DNA from: a virus
Reading direction: 5' to 3' (one strand)
Virus record (IMG/VR): IMGVR_UViG_3300038619_000274
Span: 1 to 36,915 of that record
DNA: 36,915 bases
The notes beneath the pieces are model-generated. The model made no database searches, was not told the origin of the DNA, and saw only the letters and a program-made list of their open reading frames with translations. Every line of letters starts with the position of its first letter. Position 1 is the first letter of the stretch. Shown one piece after another: positions 1 to 36,498 of the stretch. The position numbers and the translations under genes are program-made.

Positions 1-125
1 ACGCTGTTTCCGAACCTGGTGCTGTCGGCGCCGGCGGTCGGGCCTGCGATATTCCGTGCGCCGCTGTTCACCGGGCACCCGCTACCGGCCAAGTCGCCGG
101 ACTTCATACCGCCGAACTTGGTGCT
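1..125 (+). repeat. Direct repeat, copy 1
   Basis: These 125 bases are identical to 304-428, a spacing of exactly 303 bases (101 codons, three protein repeat units). The copy begins at the first base of the window, so it may continue upstream. Confidence 0.95.
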
Positions 126-1050
126 GACGGCGACAGTCGCACCGCCGGTCGGCGCACGCGAACTCGGCAAGAACGCGCCACAGGTTTTCCACGCACCCGA
201 ATTCCTGCCGCCCAACCTGGTGCTGGCCGCCTTCGCCGCGGCGCCGATTGTTATTGCGCCCGATCTTTCGGCGCATGCTCCACCGGCATCACATCCGCCG
301 GAGACGCTGTTTCCGAACCTGGTGCTGTCGGCGCCGGCGGTCGGGCCTGCGATATTCCGTGCGCCGCTGTTCACCGGGCACCCGCTACCGGCCAAGTCGC
401 CGGACTTCATACCGCCGAACTTGGTGCTCGAACTTTCGGCGGGTGCGACTGCACCGTTCAGTTCCTACGATTTCTCGGCGCATCCGCAGGCCAGTGCTAC
501 ATCGCACGCGCCCGAGTGGATTGCGCCTAATCTGCTGCTCACGACGCTGGCGCCGGTGCTCTACCCGGCCGGCGGCGTATTTCTCGACGATCATCCGCCG
601 ATCGCATCGCATCCGCCGGAATTCCTGCCGCCGAACCTGGTGCTCATCCAGGGCGCGGTTGCGGCACCGATCTTTGCCGTTGACCTGTCGGCTCATCCGG
701 CCGCGCAGCCGCACGGCAAGGAGTTTTTGCCGCCTAACCTGGTGCTGAATGCACCGCAACCGGCGCCGATCGTCAGTCTCGACTTCTCCGCGCATCCGCC
801 GCCGCCGGCGCGAGCGCCGGACATCATCTTTCGCAACCTGGTGCTGTCGGTCCTTCCGGGGCCGGCCGCATTCCCGGTCCGTAATTTCGACTTGATGTTT
901 GCGGTTCCGGCGCGGCCAAGGCAGCAAGGGCCAGAGTTCATCGCGCCCAACCTGTGCGTCCCGCCGGGACCGATACCGCCGCCGCCGCCCGTTACCGATC
1001 TCCACTTCCGTCGCTTCCACGCCGACGTCGGCGGCATGATGGTGCATTGA
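1..1050 (+). CDS. Proline-rich repeat protein, 5' end outside window
   Basis: Open from the first base to a TGA at 1048-1050 (349 residues visible), so the true start lies upstream; the GTG at 19 is internal to a repeat. The protein consists of about nine degenerate units of 33-37 residues. Each ends in a motif like PEFLPPNLVL (variants PDFIPPNLVL, PEWIAPNLLL, PDIIFRNLVL), often preceded by a D-[FL]-SAHPP-like stretch. Units one and four are identical in DNA. The last unit runs into a Pro-rich tail and a His-containing C-terminus. It ends 5 bases before the portal start, so it belongs to the head operon. I do not recognise the family. The regular spacing suggests an elongated repeat protein such as a head fibre or decoration, but that is inference only. 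Confidence 0.75.
   Translation, partial: TLFPNLVLSAPAVGPAIFRAPLFTGHPLPAKSPDFIPPNLVLTATVAPPVGARELGKNAPQVFHAPEFLPPNLVLAAFAAAPIVIAPDLSAHAPPASHPPETLFPNLVLSAPAVGPAIFRAPLFTGHPLPAKSPDFIPPNLVLELSAGATAPFSSYDFSAHPQASATSHAPEWIAPNLLLTTLAPVLYPAGGVFLDDHPPIASHPPEFLPPNLVLIQGAVAAPIFAVDLSAHPAAQPHGKEFLPPNLVLNAPQPAPIVSLDFSAHPPPPARAPDIIFRNLVLSVLPGPAAFPVRNFDLMFAVPARPRQQGPEFIAPNLCVPPGPIPPPPPVTDLHFRRFHADVGGMMVH
304..428 (+). repeat. Direct repeat, copy 2
   Basis: Second copy of the 125-base repeat at 1-125. Identity ends at base 429 (C here, G at 126). The absence of even synonymous changes implies recent duplication, gene conversion, or an assembly effect at the window edge. Confidence 0.95.
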
Positions 1051-1055
1051 TCTGC

Positions 1056-3104
1056 ATGAAGTTTGGTCCTGTTCCTCCGAAAAAGCTGCCGCAACAGGAC
1101 CCCTCGCGGGTCCTTTTGCTTGCCGAGAAGTGGCAGCGCGCCGCGTATGCGCAGCAACGATGGGCCGAACAAGCCAAGATCGCGGTCGATTTTTTCGAAG
1201 GCCGGCAATGGACCGAGGCGCAGCTCAACGAGATGCGCCGAAAGCGCCGGCCGGCGTTCAAGTTCAACATGATCGCGCCGCTGGTGCGGCTGGTTTTGGG
1301 CTATCAGCGGTCGAACAAGACCGACATTACATTCTTGCCCGGCCAGGACGCGCGCGCGTCCGAGGAGCTTGCCGAGGCTTTGACCCGCATCGAGAAGGTC
1401 ATCGCCGAAGGCTCCCACATGGATTATGTGGACACCGAAGTATTCCTCGATGGCCTGATCTGCGCGCGGGGCTATTACGACACCCGGCTTGATTTTGAGA
1501 GCAACGATCTCGGCGAGGTCAAGACGCGGGCGGCCGATCCGTTTTCGATCTATCCCGATCCCGACGCCTCGACCTATGACTTCAACGAGAGCGCAGCCCA
1601 CATCTCGGAATCGTCGTTTGTCTCGCTCGACGAGATCGACGCCTGGTTCGGCAAAGATGCGATGGACCTGCTCAAGCCCTTCATCCTCGGGCAGACGCCG
1701 CTGGCGCCGGTCTCGTCCTACATGGTGGTCGATGAAGTCTCGCCGATCCGCACCTATGGCGAGCGCGCCGACACCGAAGACACCTGGTGGGACACCTTCT
1801 ATTCGCTGGTCGGCGACTTCGTTGATCCGAGCCGGAAAACCATCCGGCTCATCAACATGCAATGGAAGCAGAAGAAGCTCGCCAACGTCCTGATCGACCT
1901 CGAAACCGGCGACAAGGCGGTGCTGCCGGAGGAGTGGAAGCAGGAGGAAATCCAGAAGGTGCTGCTCTACGCCGACCAGGTGAAAAACCCGGTCAAGATA
2001 CAGCGCCGCACCATCGAATTTATCCAGTGGACGACGTTTGCCGGCGACCTCCTGCTCTACGACCAGGAATCGCAATACGACTCCTACACGCTGCAGCCGT
2101 ACTTTCCGTATTTCCGGCGCGGCATCACCCGCGGCATGGTCGAAGACTTGATCGACCCGCAGATGGAGAAGAACAAGCACCGCTCGGCGCGGAGCGAGAT
2201 CGCGGCCAAGACCGCGAACGGCGGCTGGAAATATTCCGACGACGCGTTCGACGCGCCGCAGGAAGCCAATCTCAAGAAATTCGGCTCATCGCCAGGCGTC
2301 AATATCAAATTCAAGTCCGGTGCCAAACATCCGCCCGAGCAAATCGTGCCCGGCGGGCCCGCCAACGCGCATAAAATTCTCGAAGACGACGCCGGCCAGG
2401 ACTTAAAAGACATCGCCGGCATCAACGAAGCAGCCCTCGGCCAGGAAATGAACGTCCAATCGGGACGCGCCATTCAGGCCAAGCAGCGCCAGGCGGTGCT
2501 CTCGATCCAAGTCTATATGGACAACTTCAAGCGCTCGAAGATGCTGGTCGGCGACCAGCACTTGAAGATCATCCAGCGGTACTACACCGAACCTCGCCTC
2601 TACCGGATCATGGGCAAGGACGGCAAATTCGGCCAGGTCCTGCTCAATCAGGAGCAGCAAGACCCAACCTCGGGACTGGCGCGCATCGCCAATGACGTGA
2701 CGATCGGCAAATACACGGTGGTGATCGACGACTCGCCGTTATCGGACACCTTCCTCAACGCGCAGTTCAACGAGATGTTGACGCTGCTCGGCAAGATGGG
2801 ACCGGCGATCGCGCCGTACATCCCGATGTTCGCCGACCTGATCATTGATATGTCCTCGATGCCGCGCAAGGACGAGTGGATCGAGCGCATCAAGGCGGTG
2901 TGGGAAGCGCAGCAGCAGCAAGCGCAAGCAGGCCAGGCGCCGCCCGGCCATCCCGCGCCCGGCCAGCATCCGCAACATGGTCATCCGCACGCGCAGCCGC
3001 ATCACGGCGCGCCGCATCATGCGGCCCCGCATCAGGGGCAAGAACAGCCAGGCCCGCTCGGCGGCGGCCCGGTTGCTGAAAACGTCGTGCCATTTTCGAG
3101 GTAA
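1056..3104 (+). CDS. Portal protein, P22-like
   Basis: The portal is the dodecameric ring at the capsid vertex through which DNA is packaged and ejected, and it anchors the tail. The 682-residue protein has the hallmarks of the P22-type family: an N-terminal region with FFEGRQW and FNMIAPLVRLVLGYQRSNK, a middle with ARGYYDTRLDFE and DPFSIYPDPDA, and a late SGRAIQAKQRQAVLSIQVYMDNF segment. I chose the ATG at 1056 because upstream in-frame codons overlap the previous gene and read as shadow sequence. Residues from about 627 to the end form an unusual His/Pro/Gln-rich tail with clusters such as HPQHGHPHAQPHHG. The gene follows the repeat protein and precedes small head genes and the scaffold, the usual head-module order. 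The family call is confident; the role of the His-rich tail is unknown. Confidence 0.9.
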   Translation: MKFGPVPPKKLPQQDPSRVLLLAEKWQRAAYAQQRWAEQAKIAVDFFEGRQWTEAQLNEMRRKRRPAFKFNMIAPLVRLVLGYQRSNKTDITFLPGQDARASEELAEALTRIEKVIAEGSHMDYVDTEVFLDGLICARGYYDTRLDFESNDLGEVKTRAADPFSIYPDPDASTYDFNESAAHISESSFVSLDEIDAWFGKDAMDLLKPFILGQTPLAPVSSYMVVDEVSPIRTYGERADTEDTWWDTFYSLVGDFVDPSRKTIRLINMQWKQKKLANVLIDLETGDKAVLPEEWKQEEIQKVLLYADQVKNPVKIQRRTIEFIQWTTFAGDLLLYDQESQYDSYTLQPYFPYFRRGITRGMVEDLIDPQMEKNKHRSARSEIAAKTANGGWKYSDDAFDAPQEANLKKFGSSPGVNIKFKSGAKHPPEQIVPGGPANAHKILEDDAGQDLKDIAGINEAALGQEMNVQSGRAIQAKQRQAVLSIQVYMDNFKRSKMLVGDQHLKIIQRYYTEPRLYRIMGKDGKFGQVLLNQEQQDPTSGLARIANDVTIGKYTVVIDDSPLSDTFLNAQFNEMLTLLGKMGPAIAPYIPMFADLIIDMSSMPRKDEWIERIKAVWEAQQQQAQAGQAPPGHPAPGQHPQHGHPHAQPHHGAPHHAAPHQGQEQPGPLGGGPVAENVVPFSR

Positions 3105-20406: not shown

Positions 20407-22818
20407 ATGGCAAGTCCCCCAGCTCCCGACGATTGGGTCGTGCCGGAGCAAACAAACGCGGCCGCGGCGCCGGCGGACGATTGGGTCGTGCCGAAAGGCT
20501 CGATGCTGGAACGCGCGCACGCGGCGATCGAGGATAGTTCGGTCGGACGCGTGCAGCGCGCGGTGCTCGAGGGCGAGAAGCAAGGCTTCGGCTCCGAGCC
20601 GCTCGGCATTGTCGGCGGCTCGCCGACCGATCAGGCATTGACCAGGCTCGGCATCTTTCATGAGCCGGGCAAGGGTTATGTCGGGCCGCAGGGCACGGTG
20701 CAGCTCCTCGACGAAGCGATATTGCGCCCAAGTGCCGTAGCGGCCGACGCGTTCTTTCGCGCATTGAGCGCGGCGGGCAGCGGCGTCGCCGCCGGCGCCG
20801 GACAAGTGGCGCGCGAATTCGGCCAGAGCGAGCCGCAAGTCCGCAAGCTTACCGGCGACATCCAGACCGGCGAAGAACTCGCCGTGATGTCGCACATACC
20901 TGAGGCGGGCCTACTGGAATCGGGCCGCACTGTCGGCGCGCCGGCCTTCGAGAAAGTCCAAGCCTCGCCCGAGCAGATCGAGGATTTTCTCGCGCAGGCG
21001 GCGCGAGCACCGAACGCACCGACACCGCCGCCGTCAAAGACGCGGCAGGACATCGACGAATTCCTGCGCCAGCGCGAAGCGCGCGAGCAAGGGCAAGCCG
21101 CGCCGGCCGGCACGCCGCAACTGCCGCCGCCGGACGATTGGACGGTGCCGGCGGAGCAGGCCGCACCGGCGCCGCAACCGGCCGCGCCTTCAGGCGGTGC
21201 GCTCGACACGTTGTTCCCCTCACTCGATGAACCAGGCCGCGCGTCACCGCCGCCGGCGCAAGAGGTTGCCGATGATCGTCAAAACGGGGTCGGGCTACCA
21301 GGTGAAGTCGGAGCACGGCAAGAACCTGTCCAAAGCCAATCTGTCGAAGGGCCAAGCGGAGCGCCGGCTGGAGCAGGTGGAATACTTCAAGCACGCGCAC
21401 AAGAAGGGGCACCAGCGCCCGCAAACCAGACTTCAACATCAGCGGTAGGACCGCACACGCTGAAAGCGCTGCTCGACGATCCGCGCTCCGCCGACGAGAT
21501 CAGCGCGATCGCCGCGGCCGAGCATGGTGTCAGCGATGCGGTCGAAGCGCACGCGATCGCCGATGCGTCGTCACCAACCAATCAAATGGTTGTTGACAAC
21601 CAAACGGGGGTTAACCCCCAACCTGCCGTCGAGGACTGGCAAGCGGGCGTCGAAGCTGCAGCGCCGGCCGGCACCCGCGATGATCCAGTCGCGCTGTACG
21701 CGCCTACCGACGTGCACGCCGGCGCCGAGATCACCGCAACGCCGACACAAGGCCAGGCCGAAGCCGGCAATTACCGCAAGCGCCATGTCGAATGGCAGGG
21801 GCTGGATCTCACCGTCGAGACCGAAGCGGGCGCCGCGCGCACCGGCACCGGGCCCGGGGGCGTGCCTTGGTCGGTCACGCTGCAGAACCCCTACGGTTAC
21901 ATCAAGGGCACAAAAGGCCGCGACGGCGAGCAAATCGACGCCTATCTCGGCCCCGAACCGGCCTCCCCGCATGTCTTTGTCGTCGATCAGATCAATCCGG
22001 ATAGCGGCCGATTCGACGAGCACAAGGCGCTGATCGGCTTCGCGGACGAGCAAAGCGCCATTGCCGGCTATGTAGCGGGCTTTTCGGACGGCAGCGGCCA
22101 AGGCCGCCTGGGCGCCATTACGGCGCTCACCGTTGAGGGCTTTAAGGACTGGCTGTCGAAGGGCGTCCGGCGCAACCCCACCGCATACAGCGACCCTGTA
22201 CGCGCGATAGAGGGCGCGGCAAACGAAGCCGGGATGAACCTCACGGACGCCGAGGCGGAAGCCGCGGCTCACGCGAAAAAGGTCAGCAATGCTGACCCAA
22301 CCGAAGCATTACTCACCGTCGTCGATCATCAAGGGCTTGCGGCGGTCGACGGTGCGATAGAGACTGCCAAGACGGAAGGACTCACTGATGCCTGGACTGC
22401 TCACGGCGCGACAGAGAGTGAGGCTGGCGCAGGAATTGCGCCGGCGGGCGAACGGCCAGCCGAACCTGAAAGCGCGGGAGCGGAAGGAATTTCGCCGGCG
22501 AGCGTCGAACCTCATGGCGGCGAACAAGCTGGAAGCGCAGGCGAGCCGAGCGTAGCATCAAAGCCGGCCGCGCCCGTACCCGAGCCGGAAGCCGCGCCCG
22601 TCACGCGTGACGAAGCGCCGGCGGAGCCGAAAATCGTCGAGGCTGTCACCGTCGCCTATCTCAAAGACGTGACGAAGCGCGTGCCGTCTATGGGTGCTGG
22701 CGACAGGACGCGCGCCCGCGAGTTCATCGACACGATGTTGTCCAACATGGACAGCAACGGCAAGAAGCTCGCCGAGCATTGCGTCGAGACCGGCGGCAAG
22801 TTCTCGCTGCGCGGCTAA
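20407..22818 (+). CDS. Polyvalent protein with pyrophosphatase-like domain
   Basis: An 803-residue multi-domain protein, probably packaged and injected with DNA. The motif DDWVVP occurs at residues 8-13 and 24-29, with DDWTVP at 243-248. Residues about 454-585 resemble the inorganic-pyrophosphatase-like domain of phage polyvalent proteins: YGYIKGTKGRDGEQIDAYLG contains a D-G-E-x-I-D signature close to that of soluble pyrophosphatases, followed by HVFVVDQINP and DEHKALIGF. A small C-terminal domain ends with GGKFSLRG. Two stretches linking the domains (about 289-347 and 661-716) are low-complexity and overlap two nested genes in another frame. Substrate and activity are unknown. Confidence 0.75.
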   Translation: MASPPAPDDWVVPEQTNAAAAPADDWVVPKGSMLERAHAAIEDSSVGRVQRAVLEGEKQGFGSEPLGIVGGSPTDQALTRLGIFHEPGKGYVGPQGTVQLLDEAILRPSAVAADAFFRALSAAGSGVAAGAGQVAREFGQSEPQVRKLTGDIQTGEELAVMSHIPEAGLLESGRTVGAPAFEKVQASPEQIEDFLAQAARAPNAPTPPPSKTRQDIDEFLRQREAREQGQAAPAGTPQLPPPDDWTVPAEQAAPAPQPAAPSGGALDTLFPSLDEPGRASPPPAQEVADDRQNGVGLPGEVGARQEPVQSQSVEGPSGAPAGAGGILQARAQEGAPAPANQTSTSAVGPHTLKALLDDPRSADEISAIAAAEHGVSDAVEAHAIADASSPTNQMVVDNQTGVNPQPAVEDWQAGVEAAAPAGTRDDPVALYAPTDVHAGAEITATPTQGQAEAGNYRKRHVEWQGLDLTVETEAGAARTGTGPGGVPWSVTLQNPYGYIKGTKGRDGEQIDAYLGPEPASPHVFVVDQINPDSGRFDEHKALIGFADEQSAIAGYVAGFSDGSGQGRLGAITALTVEGFKDWLSKGVRRNPTAYSDPVRAIEGAANEAGMNLTDAEAEAAAHAKKVSNADPTEALLTVVDHQGLAAVDGAIETAKTEGLTDAWTAHGATESEAGAGIAPAGERPAEPESAGAEGISPASVEPHGGEQAGSAGEPSVASKPAAPVPEPEAAPVTRDEAPAEPKIVEAVTVAYLKDVTKRVPSMGAGDRTRAREFIDTMLSNMDSNGKKLAEHCVETGGKFSLRG
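21272..21448 (+). CDS. Nested small basic phage protein
   Basis: A 58-residue protein wholly inside the polyvalent gene, in the +1 frame. AGAGG at 21261-21265 sits 6 bases before the ATG. The sequence (YQVKSEHGKNLSKANLSKGQ, then AERRLEQVEYFKHAHKKG) resembles a widespread family of small Lys-rich phage proteins with a GKNL ... A..RL.QVE.FKH pattern. Third codon positions are almost all G or C until the last eight codons, as in real genes here, whereas the enclosing frame is locally poor in GC at third positions. Function unknown; a nucleic-acid-binding role is possible from charge. Confidence 0.75.
   Translation: MIVKTGSGYQVKSEHGKNLSKANLSKGQAERRLEQVEYFKHAHKKGHQRPQTRLQHQR
21588..21619. repeat. 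Two adjacent palindromes inside the polyvalent gene
   Basis: GGTTGTTGACAACC (6-bp arms around TG) is followed four bases later by GGGGGTTAACCCCC, a perfect 14-bp palindrome. The stretch is locally A/T-rich within GC-rich coding DNA. It may be a protein-binding site or a remnant of a former intergenic region. Confidence 0.5.
22388..22555 (+). CDS. Nested small Arg-rich protein
   Basis: A 55-residue protein wholly inside the polyvalent gene, in the +1 frame, starting 7 bases after GGAAGGA. It is strongly helical and basic (ARQRVRLAQELRRRANGQ, LKARERKEFRRRASNLMAANK) and resembles small DNA- or RNA-binding phage proteins, but no family is assigned. Third codon positions are strongly GC-biased in this frame, while the enclosing frame is mixed and gives low-complexity Ala/Gly/Glu/Pro sequence. 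It sits exactly at the junction between the pyrophosphatase-like domain and the C-terminal domain. Confidence 0.65.
   Translation: MPGLLTARQRVRLAQELRRRANGQPNLKARERKEFRRRASNLMAANKLEAQASRA
22600..22611. repeat. Repeated palindrome, copy 4
   Basis: GTCACGCGTGAC in the C-terminal part of the polyvalent gene, encoding Val-Thr-Arg-Asp at residues 732-735, 44 bases after the nested gene stop. Confidence 0.85.
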
Positions 22819-22997
22819 AGCGGTTCGTCAAATATCTGGCGGAGCCCGCAATCGCACACATACTCGCAGCTATAGACGCGCGCGCCACTCGGCCGCTCGC
22901 TTGGCGACGCCATCACGAGCTTCATCGGACCTTCGCACGCCGGACAGTAATGCGCCCAATCGGCCGCAAGCACGCGGCGGGTTTGTTGTACGGCCAT
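22815..22997 (-). CDS. Small zinc-ribbon-like protein
   Basis: A 60-residue minus-strand protein with two Cys pairs (HYCPACEGPM and CEYVCDCGL) that suggest a zinc-binding ribbon. An excellent ribosome site, AAGGAG, lies 6 bases before the ATG on the minus strand. Its TAG shares bases with the TAA of the polyvalent gene (CTAA). A hairpin at 23002-23020 covers the ribosome site. Likely a small regulator or accessory protein acquired as a single-gene insert. Confidence 0.75.
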   Translation of the reverse strand: MAVQQTRRVLAADWAHYCPACEGPMKLVMASPSERPSGARVYSCEYVCDCGLRQIFDEPL

Positions 22998-23135
22998 GAT
23001 CGTCTCCTTCTATGGGAGACGCCTTCCTGTCATCGCCGCCTGGATAGCGGGAGTGCCAGCCGAAAACTGTTCAAAACGACTCACTTTTAAGTAGCCGGCA
23101 ACACCGGCCAACCTCCCTCAAAAAAGGAGCAGACA
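22998..23135. promoter_or_regulatory. Divergent intergenic region
   Basis: This 138-base gap separates the minus-strand zinc-ribbon gene from the plus-strand SpeD-like gene, so promoters for both probably lie here. It contains an A/T-richer core (23066-23090) and a 5-bp hairpin (GCCGG/CCGGC, 23094-23108). No canonical -35/-10 pair is convincing. A strong AAGGAG site at 23124-23129 serves the plus gene. Confidence 0.45.
23002..23020 (-). promoter_or_regulatory. Hairpin covering a ribosome site
   Basis: GTCTCC (23002-23007) and GGAGAC (23015-23020) form a 6-bp stem. Read on the minus strand, the 3' arm contains the GGAG of the ribosome site of the zinc-ribbon gene, four bases before its ATG, so folding should hinder translation. 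Confidence 0.45.
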
Positions 23136-23546
23136 ATGGATCGACGGAGCAATCCGGCGAAGGCGCAGAGCGTTGCGCCGGCGCCGGATGAACTCGGCCG
23201 CCGCATGTTCATGCGCGGCATTGCGTTGCACGGCGCGCTCGACGAGCTGGAATGGCGGAGGCTGTTGCTCCACGCCGCGACCGCGCTCGGCATGTCGCCG
23301 GTCGGGGTGGCCGCAGCCTGGCGCTACCCGCTCAAAGACGGCTCGGGCGGCAACGGCACGACGATGGTGCAGCCGATCACCGAGAGCTTCCTCGCGCTCG
23401 ACACCTGGCCGGATTTAGGCGGCGCCTATCTGTTCGTGTGCTCCTGCAAGCCGTTCCCCCCCAACGTCCTCACCAAAACCATCGAAACCTTTGGCCTGCA
23501 GGTCGGCGAGGCTATCGGCGCGCCTGATTGTCTGAGGTTGTGCTGA
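23136..23546 (+). CDS. SpeD/SpeH-like (AdoMet decarboxylase-related) protein
   Basis: A 136-residue protein, the usual length of a bacterial/archaeal class S-adenosylmethionine decarboxylase proenzyme. The segment QPITESFLALDTWPDLGGAY aligns with the self-cleavage region of that family (ESHLTIHTYPE-like). Glu83-Ser84 would be the cleavage site forming the pyruvoyl cofactor, and C102/C104 lie where the catalytic Cys is found. The His needed for processing (five residues after Ser) is replaced by Asp89. It may therefore be a divergent or altered enzyme. The start ATG follows a strong AAGGAG site. The ATP-grasp gene begins two bases after it. The assignment is by pattern only. Confidence 0.55.
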   Translation: MDRRSNPAKAQSVAPAPDELGRRMFMRGIALHGALDELEWRRLLLHAATALGMSPVGVAAAWRYPLKDGSGGNGTTMVQPITESFLALDTWPDLGGAYLFVCSCKPFPPNVLTKTIETFGLQVGEAIGAPDCLRLC

Positions 23547-23547
23547 T

Positions 23548-24804
23548 ATGACCAATTATCGAAGCAAAACCTGCTGCGTCGTCGATAACGGCCTGTTTCT
23601 CGAAGTGGCGATCACGCTCGCCAAGGACTTCGGCAAGGTCCTCTATTACATGCCGTGGCAGTCCGGCTATCCGACGTCGAACGTGCTGCTCGTAGGCCAC
23701 GGTATTCCCGGCGTCACGCGCATCGACAGCTTTTGGCCGCTGCTCGACGAGATTGACCTGTTCGTGTTCCCCGACGTGTACGAGGGTCCGCTGCAGGAGC
23801 ATCTTGCGAGCCTCGGCAAGCGGGTGTGGGGCAGCCGCAACGGCGACCAGCTTGAGCTATTCCGCGCCGACAGCAAGAAACACATGAAGTCGCTTGGCAT
23901 CGACATTGGGCCGTGGAAACTCATCAAGGGCATCGACAAGCTGCGCGAACACCTTGAAAAGCACGACGATCAATGGGTGAAGATTTCGCGCACGCGCGGC
24001 GACTTCGAGACCTTCCACGCGGAAAACTACGACCTGGTGAAGCCCAAGATCGACGAGCTGGAGCACCAGCTCGGCGCCAAGGGCGAGATCATGGAATTCA
24101 TCGTCGAGGAAGGCATCCCCGACGCGGTGGAGATCGCCTACGACGGCTTCACCATCGACGGCAAGTTTGCCAAGAACGCGACGTTCGGCATCGAGGTCAA
24201 AGACAAGGGCCTGGTGACGAAGACCACCAAATACGACGCCCTGCCCGAGCAACTGCGCACGGTCAACGACAAGCTCAAAGGCACGCTGGCCGAATTCCGC
24301 TATCGCAACTTCCTCGCGGTCGAAATGCGGATCACCAAAGACGGCACGCCTTACGTGATTGATCCGTGCTGTCGCGCCGGCTCGCCGCCGTCCGAATTGC
24401 TGCTCGAACTGATCTGTAATTGGGCGGACATCATGTGGGAAGGCGCCGAGGGCACCGTGGTCGAGCCGGTGTTTCAGGCGAAGTGGGGCGCCGAGCTGCT
24501 GCTCATCTCCGATTGGGGCGACACCCACTGGCAACCGCTGCAATTCCCGAAGTCGATCCGCGAGCAAGTCAAGCTGCGCTACGCCGCTGTCATCGACGGC
24601 ACCTATTACGTCGTGCCGCAGGCCTCCGCGCATCCCGAGATCGGCGCCGTTGTCGCCACCGGCGACACGATGGACGCCGCGATCAAGGAAGTCTGCGCGA
24701 TCGCCGAGAAGGTGAAGGGCTTTTACGTCGAGGTCGTGCCCGAGTGCCTCGATGAAGCGCAGGAGCAATTCGACAAGCTGCGCGAGTTCGGGATTAAGGT
24801 TTAG
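23548..24804 (+). CDS. ATP-grasp ligase-like protein
   Basis: A 418-residue protein with an ATP-grasp profile. An N-terminal pre-grasp domain (about 1-110, with KTCCVVDNGLFLEVAITLAKDFG) is followed by a lid-like region (WVKISRTRGDFETFH, GEIMEFIVEEGIPDAVEIAYDGF), a metal/ATP-binding segment (FLAVEMRITKDGTPYVIDPCCRAG) and a C-terminal domain (EIGAVVATGDTMDAAIKEVCAIAE) resembling the end of PurD-type glycinamide ribonucleotide synthetases. Such enzymes ligate a carboxylate to an amine with ATP. It starts two bases after the SpeD-like gene and probably acts with it, but no substrate can be named. Its TAG overlaps the stop of the minus-strand gene as TTAG. Confidence 0.65.
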   Translation: MTNYRSKTCCVVDNGLFLEVAITLAKDFGKVLYYMPWQSGYPTSNVLLVGHGIPGVTRIDSFWPLLDEIDLFVFPDVYEGPLQEHLASLGKRVWGSRNGDQLELFRADSKKHMKSLGIDIGPWKLIKGIDKLREHLEKHDDQWVKISRTRGDFETFHAENYDLVKPKIDELEHQLGAKGEIMEFIVEEGIPDAVEIAYDGFTIDGKFAKNATFGIEVKDKGLVTKTTKYDALPEQLRTVNDKLKGTLAEFRYRNFLAVEMRITKDGTPYVIDPCCRAGSPPSELLLELICNWADIMWEGAEGTVVEPVFQAKWGAELLLISDWGDTHWQPLQFPKSIREQVKLRYAAVIDGTYYVVPQASAHPEIGAVVATGDTMDAAIKEVCAIAEKVKGFYVEVVPECLDEAQEQFDKLREFGIKV

Positions 24805-25316
24805 ATCGGGAAGATGGGCGTCCCGTCTCTCAGTAGCACATGCGGCATGCGCATCGCTTTGAGCATGTTGTTTTCTAAAACCTGCAGCTCGTCCTCGGTC
24901 ATTCCATTTTCGTCGCGGCGCGGCAGGCCGGCCTCGGCGCGCTCACTATCGGTGATGATTTGCACACCGTTGTCGAGAAACAGGTCCGATAGTTCAACCG
25001 CACACTCGCGGTACAAATTGCGTTCCGAGTGATCGCAAACATACCGCCCGACGATGTGCAGGACGGAGCCGAGCAGCTGCTGCGCCCGCCCGTAGCGCCG
25101 ATTGATCGTGATTTTCGGGCTGCCCGGCTTGGGCGCCGGCGGCAACGGCATCCAGTGTGTCGGCTCGATTCGGGTGTTCCAATTTCCTTCGCTGTCCCGA
25201 TAGCCGCCATCCTTAGCTCGATACGCTAGGCCAATCGCGCGCTTACCATCGCGCGGCCAGTAATAGATAAACATCTCGTCTTGAGGCGCCGTTTCGATCG
25301 GTTGCCAGCGAGCCAT
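24801..25316 (-). CDS. DUF551-like phage protein
   Basis: A 171-residue minus-strand protein. Its N-terminus (RWQPIETAPQDEMFIYYW ... PTHWMPLPPAP) matches the widespread DUF551-type phage pattern (W-P-I-E-T-A-P ... HWMPLP). A distinct C-terminal part (RRYGRAQQLLGSVLHIVGRYV onward) is helical and charged. I chose the ATG at 25316 because GGAGG lies six bases upstream; TTG codons further out give only a two-residue extension. Its stop overlaps the ATP-grasp stop, and its start is 11 bases from the start of the giant gene on the other strand. Function of the family is unknown. Confidence 0.75.
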   Translation of the reverse strand: MARWQPIETAPQDEMFIYYWPRDGKRAIGLAYRAKDGGYRDSEGNWNTRIEPTHWMPLPPAPKPGSPKITINRRYGRAQQLLGSVLHIVGRYVCDHSERNLYRECAVELSDLFLDNGVQIITDSERAEAGLPRRDENGMTEDELQVLENNMLKAMRMPHVLLRDGTPIFPI

Positions 25317-25327
25317 CAACAACCTCC

Positions 25328-28300
25328 ATGATCCGCTGTCCCAACTTCCGCTCCGATAAGGCGCGGGATGACTTCAATGCTGTGCTGGCGCGGCTCGGCG
25401 GCGTAGCCATGTCCGCCGACGACATCTCGCCGCGGCAACCCTATCTCGCGCGCCTCAACGAAAAGCAAACGCAGGCTTATCACGTCGCGCACTATTTATG
25501 GAACGCGCACAAGACGCCGGCGGAGATCGGGGCTTTCCTCGATGCACTCGACCAGGTGAGGGATGCGCTGGAGGCAGAGCCGGCGCCGACACCCGCAAAA
25601 ACGCTGGCACCAGCGCAAAAAGCGGAGAACGAAACGGGACGGCCTCCTTCTGTTCCGGGTGACGTAGCGTCAACCGAAGCCGCCCCGCTGTCGAACCTGC
25701 CGGCGATCAATCTGGCGCGGGATCTGCTCGAACGGCTGCGCGCCGGCAAGCCGATCTCGACCAAGATCATGCAGCAGATGGCGGCCGAGATTTATGGCGC
25801 CAAGCTGTCCGAGGGGCATTTCGACCGCAAGGACATGCAGGACGCGCTTGAGCTTGCGGTGAACATGCGGATTGCCGAAGACGCCGCATTGCGCACCGAT
25901 AAGGGCGAGTGGCGCGAGCCGATGGCGAAGCTCGACGAGCTTTTGTCGAAGCTGCCGACACAGCGGGTGCGCTCCGAGGAACAAGAGAGCTTCCAGCAAT
26001 TCTCGACGCCACCGACCTATAGCGCTGCCGCGGCCTATGCCGCGAACCTGCGCGATGGCGACGTCGTGCTTGAGCCTTCGGCCGGCACCGGCTCGCTGGT
26101 CGCGGCGACCTCAAAGCCGGGCGTGAAAATTATCGCCAACGAATTGTCCGAGCGGCGCACCGCGCTGCTGCGCGCGCTGATCGGCGACCGGATTTTTCAC
26201 GAGAACGCCGAGCAGCTCAACAACACGCTGCCCGACAGCGTGAAGCCTTCCATCGTGGTGATGAACCCGCCGTTTTCGCAGACCGCCGGCCGCATGGGCG
26301 ACAAGAAGGTGCCGATGACCGGCGCCATCCACGTCGAGCAAGGCTTAAAGCGCCTCGAACCGGGTGGGCGCCTGGTGGCGATCGTCGGCCGCGGCATGAC
26401 CATGGGGGCGCCGGTCTATCGCGCCTGGTGGTCGAAGATTGGCAAGGAATACACCGTCCGCGCCAATATCGGCGTCGACGGCAAGGTGTTCGAGAAATAC
26501 GGCACCACTTTCGGCACTCGTTTACTCGTCATAGATAAGGTGAAGCCGACCGGCGAAGCGCCGGTTTTGGCAGACGCGCAGACGGTCGATGACCTGATGC
26601 GCGCATTGGAGCCGATCCGAAATGCCCGGACTGCCGCAGAACAACATGGTGCTCAATCGGCTGGCGCTGAATTGGCTGAAGCAAGCCAAGACGCCGGGGG
26701 TGCCCCATTATCTGAACCTGCTGCTGCTGGCGGAGTGGGGCCTGGAGAACGGGGCATCGGGGGGCTGGCCGGAGAAGGAGCGACCAGCACTGCGGGATCA
26801 GGTGAACCTGATGTTCGGGTGGAAGCCGGCGAACACGCTGGCGTGGCTGCTGTCGAACCCGGAAGCGGGCGACCGAGCGGAGCAACAGGACAATCTCCTG
26901 AAGTTGCTGGAGGCCGTGGACAACCCGAAGGACGCGGCGGCGCACGTCCTCAACGCAATCTGGGACCGGCTGGTGGCGACGACGCCGCAGCTACAGCCCG
27001 CAGCGAGCGAGTTGAGCTAGAGCACGCCGAGCCTGGTTCGCAGGGCGCAGCGGAAATTTCCGACAGCCTCTACGATCAGTACCGCCCGCAGCGCGTCAAA
27101 GTGCCGGGCGCCAAGCCGCATCCGTCAAAGCTCGTCGAATCCGCGGCGATGGCATCCGTGCCGCCGCCGGCGCCGACGTACAAGCCGAGCCTGCCGCGCG
27201 CGGTGATCGAGAAGGGCTTGCTCTCCGACGCGCAGATCGAACCCGTCATCTATGCCGGCGAGGCGCACGCCAAGATGTTGCCGGCGGCGGAAGGCGAGCC
27301 GGCGAGGCGCAAGGGCTTTTTCATCGGCGACGGCACCGGCGTCGGCAAAGGCCGCGAGGTCGCCGGCATCATCCTCGATAACTGGAACCAGGGGCGCACC
27401 AAGGCCGTGTGGGTGTCGGAGAAGCGAAAGCTGCTCACCGACGCCAAGCGCGACTGGAAGGGGCTGCAACAAAACCCCGATCACCTTTTCGACGTGGGCA
27501 AGGTCAAGACCGGCGAGCCGATCGACGCCAAGAAGGGCATCGCGTTTGTTACCTACGACACGCTCAAGGGCGGCATGTCGGATCAAGCGGCGCTCTCCCG
27601 CGGCGGTTTCGTGCGCAAGCAGTCCGTCTCGGTCAACGGCCAGCCTGGCTTGGTGCAATCGGTCGGCAAAGTCGCGCGCGGCAAACCGGCGCAGATCACC
27701 GTCAAGCTCGAAAACGGCACCACCGTCACCGTGCCGGCGAAAGAAGTGAAGGCGGAGGAAAAGGCCGCGGTCAAATCGCGCATCGACCAGCTCGCCGATT
27801 GGTTCGGCAAGGACTTCGACGGCGTGATTGCTTTCGATGAAGCCCACAACATGGGCAACGCCACCGACACCAAGGGCGACCGCGGACAGAAAGACGCGGC
27901 GATGAAGGCAATCGCCGGCATGGACCTGCAGAAGCGGCTCCCCAACGCCCGCATTGTCTATGTCTCCGCCACCGGCGCCACCGAGGTTTCCAATCTCGCT
28001 TATGCCGATCGGCTCGGGCTGTGGGGCAGGGGCACGCCGTTTGCCTCGCGCGCCGCGTTCGTCTCGCAAGTCACCGAAGGCGGCATCGCGGCGATGGAGC
28101 TCATCGCCCGCGACATGAAGCAGCTCGGCCTCTACACCGCGCGCAATCTCTCCTATGACGGCGTTGAATACGATCGCGTCGAGCACAAGCTCGATGCCAA
28201 CCAGCGCGAGATTTACGACACGTTGGCGCAAGCCTGGCAGGTGGTGCTGCGCGACATCAACGCGGCGCTCAAGCTCACCGGCGGCAACTTCGACAGCCGC

Positions 28301-34504: not shown

Positions 34505-34681
34505 TTAATCAACGCCGTGCTTCGGACAACCGTGCACCCACTCGCCGGCGATCTTATTCGACTTCCAACCTTCGCGCTTTGCTGCGGGCCAAACCTCATT
34601 CCATTCGTCGCTGTCGCCGACGAATATCTCATCGCAGCTATCGCACTCGATGACGATCTTGCCGTGCTGGTGGTCGATCAT
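34505..34681 (-). CDS. Small Cys-rich phage protein
   Basis: A 58-residue minus-strand protein with CDSCDEIF near residue 13 and a C-terminal CPKHGVD, a Cys-x-x-Cys ... Cys-x-x-His arrangement that suggests a zinc site, around the block SDEWNEVWPAAKREGWKSNK. This pattern is common in small phage and prophage proteins of unknown function. The ATG overlaps the TGA of the HerA-like gene as ATGA, and GGGAGG lies just upstream, so translation is coupled. Confidence 0.75.
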   Translation of the reverse strand: MIDHQHGKIVIECDSCDEIFVGDSDEWNEVWPAAKREGWKSNKIAGEWVHGCPKHGVD

Positions 34682-36498
34682 GCGGCCTCCCTGCCTTCCA
34701 TCAACATCGGGGAAGCGCGGAGCTGCTTGTCACGCGTGACTTCGATCAGGCCAGGCGATCGCAATCGACCGAGATAAGTGCTGTAGGTTCCCGACGTATG
34801 AACGAGACCGACATCGGCCGCCAACTGCTCGCGCGTTGTCCATTGCGGGTAAATCTCGGCGAGCCGCCGCAACATCGGCCCGACGCCGGAGATTTTAGAC
34901 ACCCAAAACTCGACGAGCGCGCGACCAGGCGGCGGCATCGTCGGCACGCTGTCGCCGAGATCGGCTAGACCCTTCTCGGTGACAAACCAAAGGTCGCCGC
35001 GCCGCTCGATACGGCCAGCGTCGGACAGCCTGCCGCGATAGGTCGACCAGGTGCCGGAGTTCTTAAAACCAGCGGCAACGCGCCATTGGCCTTCCGTCAT
35101 GCCTGCCGGGTAGACGCTCGCCAGCGCCGCAAGCGGCTTGCGCTCGGCGCCGAGCGGTCGATCGCCGTCGTCGGAAGGGGTGGCGCTCTTGGCGCCGGAT
35201 GGCACTCGGGGCGGGACGCTTGGCGCGGCGCGGGGCACCATTGTCGGCGCCGGCGCCGCTGGCGTGAACGTCACCGGCTCCGCCTTCGCGTCCCGGATAT
35301 TCACAGCCTCCAACTCGCCGTCGATCTGCTCCATGAACTTGCGCGCATAGCCGCGCAAGGTGCCGAGGACGCTTTTGAGGTTTTTGCGCAGTTCGCGTTC
35401 CATGACACCCTTGAGCTTCTTTTCGGCCTGCTCAAACCCACGCTTCTCGGCGGCGGCGATCGCGTCCTTGTCGGGCGGCGCCTTGGCTGTTGACTTATAA
35501 GTCAACTTCGCGATTTCCCGGTCCCTTTCAGCCACTTGCGCCCGCAGCGCCCGCGGATCGTTGGCTTTTGCCTCCGCCTCGACCGTCGCCAGGCGCTCCT
35601 TCAAGTCCCCGAGATTGATCGGTTTGAGCGCCTTGGCTTTCTTCGCCCGCTCGCCTCGCTTCGGCGCCCGCGAGCTGTCGAATGTCGCCTTGCGCGGGAA
35701 CTGCACAGTCTCGAGCACGCCATGTGTCGGGAGCCACACGACGCCTTCGCCCACCTGCATCGCCGGCAGCGAATCCTTGATCGCCTTGCCCTGCGCCTTG
35801 TCGGCCTGGCCTTCGATCCACGCATCGAGCGCATCGCGGTCCTGTGACGACGTGAGCTTGAACGCGATTAGGCCGTCCATTTGCGAGAGCACGTTTTTGT
35901 TGACGACGGCGGGGCGCTGCGAGATCAGCCACGGCACAAATCCCTTGACGCGGCCGCGGCGCACGATGTTCTCCATGAGGCCGAGCAAGGTCTCGTCGCC
36001 GCCATGCGGCTTTTGCGGTGCGAACAGGTCGGCCTCGTCAACGACCAGGTGGAACGGTTCACCGCCGGCCTTGCGGTAGATGGTTTCGAGGAACGCCGTC
36101 ATGAAGCGCCGTTCCGACGATTTGCTGCCAAGCTCGCACAAGTCGACGATGCAGCTCTCCGCCATCGTCGCGGCTGTCTCGCCGATCAGCGCGCCGGCAT
36201 ACTCGTCGAGCGGGAGATCGCCGCGCGATCCGCCGAAGATCGCGACATTGTAGGGCGACGGATGCTTGCCGTCCGCGGTGAGCCGCAATCCCCACCAGAC
36301 TGAAAGTGGGTCAATGATGACCACTTTGGCCTTTTGTTGGAGCAGCCGTTCCACCGCAGCACCTGCATTGTAGGTTTTTCCACTTCCCGAGGTTCCTAGA
36401 AAACCCAAGCGATCATCGAGAGCGGAGTTAGGTATTGGATATGCAGTCATTGGGCCCTGACCGCTCAACAACGCAATCGCTTGCTCTAAATCCGTCAT
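34678..36498 (-). CDS. HerA/FtsK-like ATPase with winged-helix C-terminus
   Basis: A 606-residue P-loop ATPase of the HerA-FtsK group (DUF87-like): Walker A GTSGSGKT at 35-42, KVVIIDPLSVWWG after it, Walker B LVVDEAD at about 150, and a sensor-like WLISQRPAVVNKNVLSQMD. Residues about 280-380 are a charged coiled-coil, 400-450 a Pro-rich linker, and the C-terminus has two winged-helix-like repeats (YPAGMTEGQWRVAAGFKNSGTWSTYRGRLSDAG and a related copy with GTYSTYLGRLRSPG). HerA proteins pump or process DNA, usually with a NurA nuclease; none is visible here. The start follows AGAGG. The role in this phage is unknown; a tailed phage normally packages with terminase instead. Confidence 0.75.
   Translation of the reverse strand: MTDLEQAIALLSGQGPMTAYPIPNSALDDRLGFLGTSGSGKTYNAGAAVERLLQQKAKVVIIDPLSVWWGLRLTADGKHPSPYNVAIFGGSRGDLPLDEYAGALIGETAATMAESCIVDLCELGSKSSERRFMTAFLETIYRKAGGEPFHLVVDEADLFAPQKPHGGDETLLGLMENIVRRGRVKGFVPWLISQRPAVVNKNVLSQMDGLIAFKLTSSQDRDALDAWIEGQADKAQGKAIKDSLPAMQVGEGVVWLPTHGVLETVQFPRKATFDSSRAPKRGERAKKAKALKPINLGDLKERLATVEAEAKANDPRALRAQVAERDREIAKLTYKSTAKAPPDKDAIAAAEKRGFEQAEKKLKGVMERELRKNLKSVLGTLRGYARKFMEQIDGELEAVNIRDAKAEPVTFTPAAPAPTMVPRAAPSVPPRVPSGAKSATPSDDGDRPLGAERKPLAALASVYPAGMTEGQWRVAAGFKNSGTWSTYRGRLSDAGRIERRGDLWFVTEKGLADLGDSVPTMPPPGRALVEFWVSKISGVGPMLRRLAEIYPQWTTREQLAADVGLVHTSGTYSTYLGRLRSPGLIEVTRDKQLRASPMLMEGREAA
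34729..34740. repeat. Repeated palindrome, copy 6
   Basis: GTCACGCGTGAC near the 3' end of the minus-strand HerA-like gene. Read on that strand it again encodes Val-Thr-Arg-Asp. Confidence 0.85.

Follow-up and report, generated by a model that had tools for sequence, protein, structure and literature searches.

Small phage genes probably nested within the inter-domain linkers of giant polyvalent genes

Results

Three small frames lie inside two long phage genes

The window, by which we mean the whole stretch of DNA analysed here, is a 36.9-kb IMG/VR viral record (IMGVR_UViG_3300038619_000274) with a GC content of.63. Two long genes, A and B, enclose three small frames, n1, n2, and n3, each lying wholly within the outer frame and on the same strand, i.e., as a nested overlap.

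20407..22818, + strand: host gene A, 803-aa polyvalent-type protein, InPase domain at aa 449-583; encloses n1 and n2
21260..21266, + strand: SD-like AAGAGGT ahead of n1, from sequence
21272..21448, + strand: n1, 58 aa, nested; basic; predicted beta-beta-beta-alpha core; at least 445 IMG/VR relatives
22374..22380, + strand: SD-like GGAAGGA ahead of n2, from sequence
22388..22555, + strand: n2, 55 aa, nested; basic; nested relatives in L003, L007, L019, and L100
25328..33484, + strand: host gene B, 2718-aa polyvalent protein, Pfam PF13872, PF13871, and PF18857; encloses n3
26608..26611, + strand: weak SD-like GGAG, 10 nt ahead of n3, from sequence
26622..27020, + strand: n3, 132 aa, nested; predicted all-helical; 11 records, every one nested

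Gene A has one recognised domain, the InPase (Pfam PF18823, E 1.7e-46), and is 43% identical to its relative in contig L003. Gene B joins an MTase-like region, a Strawberry-notch helicase, and LPD38, and thus carries several conflict-related domains on one polypeptide, as polyvalent proteins do; its MTase-like region (approximately aa 218-417) is weak in Pfam and a DNA methyltransferase in PHROGs. Gene A is joined to relatives of gene B in several phages, and a gene A-like InPase part and a gene B-like part share one open frame in L007, L008, L010, L019, and L100.

An earlier, sequence-only reading of the window had placed the three small frames between domains of the large proteins, all in the same relative frame. 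The coordinates are exact, each frame is offset by +1 from the enclosing one, and the Pfam and PHROGs domain positions agree with the location: n1 spans aa 289-348 of gene A, upstream of the InPase, n2 spans aa 661-717, downstream of it, and n3 spans aa 432-565 of gene B, between the MTase-like region and the helicase. The codon-position GC profile also bears out the claim that third positions are G/C-rich in the nested frames and depleted in the host frames. At codon positions 1/2/3, the nested frames have GC contents of.61/.34/.83 (n1),.70/.52/.80 (n2), and.69/.41/.87 (n3), giving third positions of.80-.87, whereas the host-frame third positions fall to.34,.52, and.41 within n1, n2, and n3, with the full-length host genes reaching.71 and.81. 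Pfam and PHROGs held no family for n1-n3 at an E-value below 0.1.

Translation signals vary between families

Good ribosome sites had been claimed for two of the small genes, and n1 and n2 have them (AAGAGGT and GGAAGGA), while n3 has GGAG alone in the window. SD-like sites precede all five n2 starts (5/5), and in L016-L018 the n3 start follows AAGGAGG or GGAGGA. Among nested n1 starts, SD matches of 5 nt or more occur in 26% vs 8% of the background, those of 4 nt or more stay at the background level (28% vs 27%), and many AT-rich nested starts lack an SD. As a general proof of translation, the SD is unconvincing in AT-rich phages. Internal initiation at the nested ATGs of the shared mRNA would yield the small proteins, and the sequence features suggest that n1-n3 are translated.

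n1 occurs both nested and alone, n2 and n3 only nested

A scan of IMG/VR found at least 445 n1 relatives, the best 80 of which were fetched. In 40 of these 80 loci, n1 is nested in a giant open frame of approximately 800-2700 aa, without exception in the same phase; the nested share is not a population estimate because the 80 were picked by likeness to an alignment that included nested copies. The nested contigs span 32-68% GC. One further locus, L092, was flagged as nested; n1 there precedes the ORF start, and the locus was left out of the count. Nearly all remaining fetched loci are stand-alone, often within tight gene arrays, and the host-type frame contains a stop in 38 of 40 stand-alone copies. 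The start codon at the nested 5' end is conserved in both nested and stand-alone n1, which is single-copy in all records with a match (35/35), nested or alone, the two kinds never occurring together. A tree of n1 has too few columns to count origins or events.

Several stand-alone copies adjoin terminase large subunit genes, and one precedes a portal gene. The window has a terminase large subunit-like gene (phrog_2666) at 34678-36498 on the minus strand, approximately 13 kb from n1; unlike the terminase genes adjoined by stand-alone copies, it is distant from n1 and on the opposite strand. Among cultured phages, Aeromonas phage 1233 alone matched n1 at E 0.01, in a stand-alone locus with no feature annotated there, and a search of 398 genomes of one phylum, run without a positive control, gave no n1 match.

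In contrast to n1, the other two families were found nested only, so that the search for stand-alone homologues proposed in the earlier reading succeeded for one gene of the three. Nested n2 was found in five records (the window, L003, L007, L019, and L100). In L007, L019, and L100, a single ORF corresponds to both proteins of the window, and n2 separates its InPase part from its MTase part. The n3 family comprises 11 records (the window, L003, L007, L008, L010, L016-L019, L100, and L103) and always lies at the MTase-helicase junction, in a long open frame and in the same phase, down to approximately 28-31% identity for the most distant members. All three genes are nested at the same places in L003, a 61-kb contig, with identities of 72% (n1), 42% (n2), and 68% (n3). 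Neither n2 nor n3 was found stand-alone in eight viral scans, one genome-contig scan, or the 398 genomes. The query protein P0003 had no match in cultured phages, and since single-sequence scans with P0003 and P0002 matched no relative in viral contigs, alignments were needed for the relative search.

A candidate fourth nested family of approximately 43-86 aa, in the same phase, was seen in two unrelated host groups:

L068:4289-4438, L071:4331-4462, L095:4232-4492, L096:3455-3595, and L099:3461-3595

Conservation lies with the small proteins

The earlier reading had named synonymous-site constraint as a check, and over the same bases the nested pN/pS lies below that of the host frame for every gene: 0.16 vs 3.16 for n1, 0.67 vs 1.24 for n3, and 0.82 vs 1.33 for n2, the nested values of n2 and n3 not being far below 1. 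Differences among nested n1 copies are most frequent at nested position 3 and fewest at position 2, the wobble position of the host; the reverse would be expected if selection acted in the host frame alone. Among nearer relatives, n3 is 44-68% identical, the linker encoded by the same bases 29-52%, and the host flanks 65-88%. From these identities and the pN/pS values, it follows that conservation acts on the small proteins, while the host frame is kept open and is otherwise free.

That the host frame is kept open is visible in the wobble bases of n1, where T makes up 2.4% in nested copies vs 18.9% in stand-alone ones, a difference present in every GC class. When n1 was redrawn synonymously with the codon usage of the host gene, the host frame was open in fewer than 1% of versions in most AT-rich hosts; since the copies share ancestry, multiplying these fractions does not give a probability. 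Because the nested pN/pS is low and wobble T is depleted, both frames are selected in nested n1.

The open length of the nested frame was rejected as evidence, an open n3 frame being not rare at this GC: for the linker peptide and codon usage of the host, it is open in 20-86% of random versions. The evidence for n3 is therefore conservation, not length. As judged from the sequence comparisons, chance is excluded once the relatives are considered.

The shared phase allows host stops to be cleared synonymously

In all nested copies, the host codon starts at the wobble base of the nested gene. Since T is the first base of every stop codon, the small gene can, in this phase, clear every host-frame stop through synonymous wobble changes. 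In the opposite same-strand phase, the host codon would start at the second base of the nested codon, which is fixed by the amino acid. We infer this phase rule from the genetic code, and all nested copies are consistent with it. The nested arrangement is thus stable because host codons start at the nested wobble base and stops start with T, and the shared relative frame, which this permits, is not independent evidence. The host codons in the overlap are composed of a wobble base without T followed by the nested first and second bases, resulting in peptides rich in Gly/Ala/Glu/Pro/Gln; the linker is a by-product of stop clearance in this phase. Translation of this stretch in the host frame would give the giant protein a disordered Ala/Gly/Glu/Pro-rich linker. 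The earlier proposal that one stretch is read both as a linker and as a separate small gene therefore holds, in that the frames behave as genes and the host reads linker.

Mosaic borders coincide with the ends of n1

Nested copies that share 80% or more identity over the n1 DNA often have unrelated host peptides next to it, on one side or on both, and pairwise local DNA alignments start or end at the n1 borders. The spans, relative to n1, are:

L028/L054, 0..138 (n1 length 138)
L027/L028, -1..134
L064/L071, -1..125
L031/L050, -611..131
L068/L071, -1..2619

Since the flanks differ and the borders lie at the n1 ends, transfer as a cassette, or else recombination at n1, fits no less well than read-through. 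Of the capture by fusion proposed in the earlier reading, the reuse of an older gene as a linker has stood for n1; read-through fusion of neighbouring genes is one possible route to it. n1 would travel as a frame-compatible cassette, or act as a hinge where giant-gene domains are exchanged between phages.

Short direct repeats were seen inside the giant genes at L042:3965-5289 (26 nt) and L026:3968-5218 (54 nt), recurring every ~400-720 nt with one copy adjoining n1; they may be domain exchange sites. At L060:2176-6760, an upstream 658-aa frame extends across n1 to a stop just past it, and the n1 frame continues as a 919-aa ORF, i.e., either two genes overlap at n1 or the assembly has slipped. 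Like the borders, these loci favour a role of n1 in transfer or exchange.

Predicted structures and possible functions

The AlphaFold model of n1 has a small core, predicted with confidence, in which strands precede a helix (beta-beta-beta-alpha, pLDDT 85). Against viral models, Foldseek returned small uncharacterised phage proteins (best E 0.0075, TMt up to 0.83) as well as segments of prohead protease and XkdF-like proteins, the E-values of the latter being weak. The PDB matches 3bid (Z 4.1, rmsd 2.9, 52 aligned) and 6q2z (HVO_2922; Z 3.9, rmsd 3.1, 48 aligned) are weak, and we assign n1 to no fold family. The n1 protein is strongly basic, with a net charge of +9 in the window; because of this charge, the stand-alone copies often found by terminase, and the look-alikes in prohead protease and XkdF-like proteins, we would guess at a head or packaging-related role, perhaps in nucleic-acid binding. 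n2 is short and basic (net +11). n3 is predicted to be all-helical (model pLDDT 70), and its model had no significant match in the PDB.

Discussion

Our analysis supports, with a probability of roughly 0.8, a model in which n1-n3 are real small phage genes within the inter-domain linkers of giant polyvalent genes, n1 probably being the older partner and serving as a cassette or hinge. For n1, reuse of an older gene as a linker is well supported, and this gene is probably both more widespread and older than the giant-gene reading.

The GC content of the window and the ease with which the n3 frame stays open would suit a composition artefact, in which the wobble-rich frame of a GC-rich phage looks open and gene-like by chance. 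However, n1 is nested in contigs from 32% to 68% GC and stands alone elsewhere, and conservation is higher for the nested proteins than for the host reading, a pattern that refutes the artefact for n1 and n3 and leaves it scarcely credible overall. It is nearly as improbable that the stretch serves as an element at the DNA or RNA level, such as a recombination or packaging site, with its coding look secondary. The mosaic borders at n1 and the direct repeats at the junctions of some hosts would suit such an element, but changes track the nested codons, being fastest at the wobble base and slowest at position 2, and the amino acids are retained in contigs that differ widely in GC; this codon-structured change largely refutes the element, while an added recombination role is possible. 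Programmed frameshifting from the host into a shorter fusion product, with no separate protein, is somewhat less remote but still improbable: the frames overlap on the same strand and the L060 upstream ORF ends just past n1 where the n1 frame continues, yet the nested 5' start codon is conserved in nested and stand-alone n1, and SD-like sites lie at the n2 starts and several n3 starts.

More weight belongs to overprinting, in which the linker came first and n2 and n3 arose newly inside it. Because neither has been found stand-alone, we regard this origin as a genuine, if clearly less favoured, possibility for these two genes; against it, the linker is less conserved than n3 and varies freely, and n1, in a similar location, does occur alone. 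As in overprinted viral genes, one DNA is read in two frames. In viral overlaps, the frame two nucleotides downstream of the older frame tends to be disordered (PMC8227390), and the host linker relative to n1 fits this trend. In overprinting, the small inner gene is usually the new one and has the narrower distribution, whereas here n1 is widespread, with roughly half of its fetched loci stand-alone, n2 and n3 being nested only, and the outer reading over n1 looks new.

Small genes nested in the +1 frame are familiar from embedded spanins, e.g., Rz1 within Rz of lambda, where embedded, overlapped, and separated forms exist (PMC6139136). Like n1-n3, the inner gene lies wholly within the larger one and is often missed by gene callers. 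Unlike in Rz/Rz1, the outer gene is here a giant polyvalent gene, the overlap coincides with linkers between domains, the small genes belong to several unrelated families, and n1 is located at mosaic borders. Nothing indicates a role in lysis; the inspected translations of n1, n2, and n3 in the window contain no cysteine, and thus no lipobox of the embedded spanin kind. The InPase, MTase-like, helicase, and LPD38 parts of the host genes are those of polyvalent phage proteins (PMC5512222), in a text search of which nested genes are not mentioned. The open-access papers searched did not describe small genes nested in polyvalent linkers.

These genes point to a repeated, conserved class nested in giant phage genes, of a kind that automatic annotation tends to suppress, and depletion of wobble T together with reversed codon-position bias within long ORFs offers a signature with which to search for more. 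n1 inverts the usual story of overprinting, with a widespread gene inside and a new reading outside, and the arrangement suggests how modular giant proteins can join without a designed linker. More tentatively, and on balance doubtfully, the small genes may act as joints that supply a needed phage protein, a ready-made disordered linker, and homology for in-frame domain exchange; if so, one gene would help to drive the domain shuffling of anti-host proteins.
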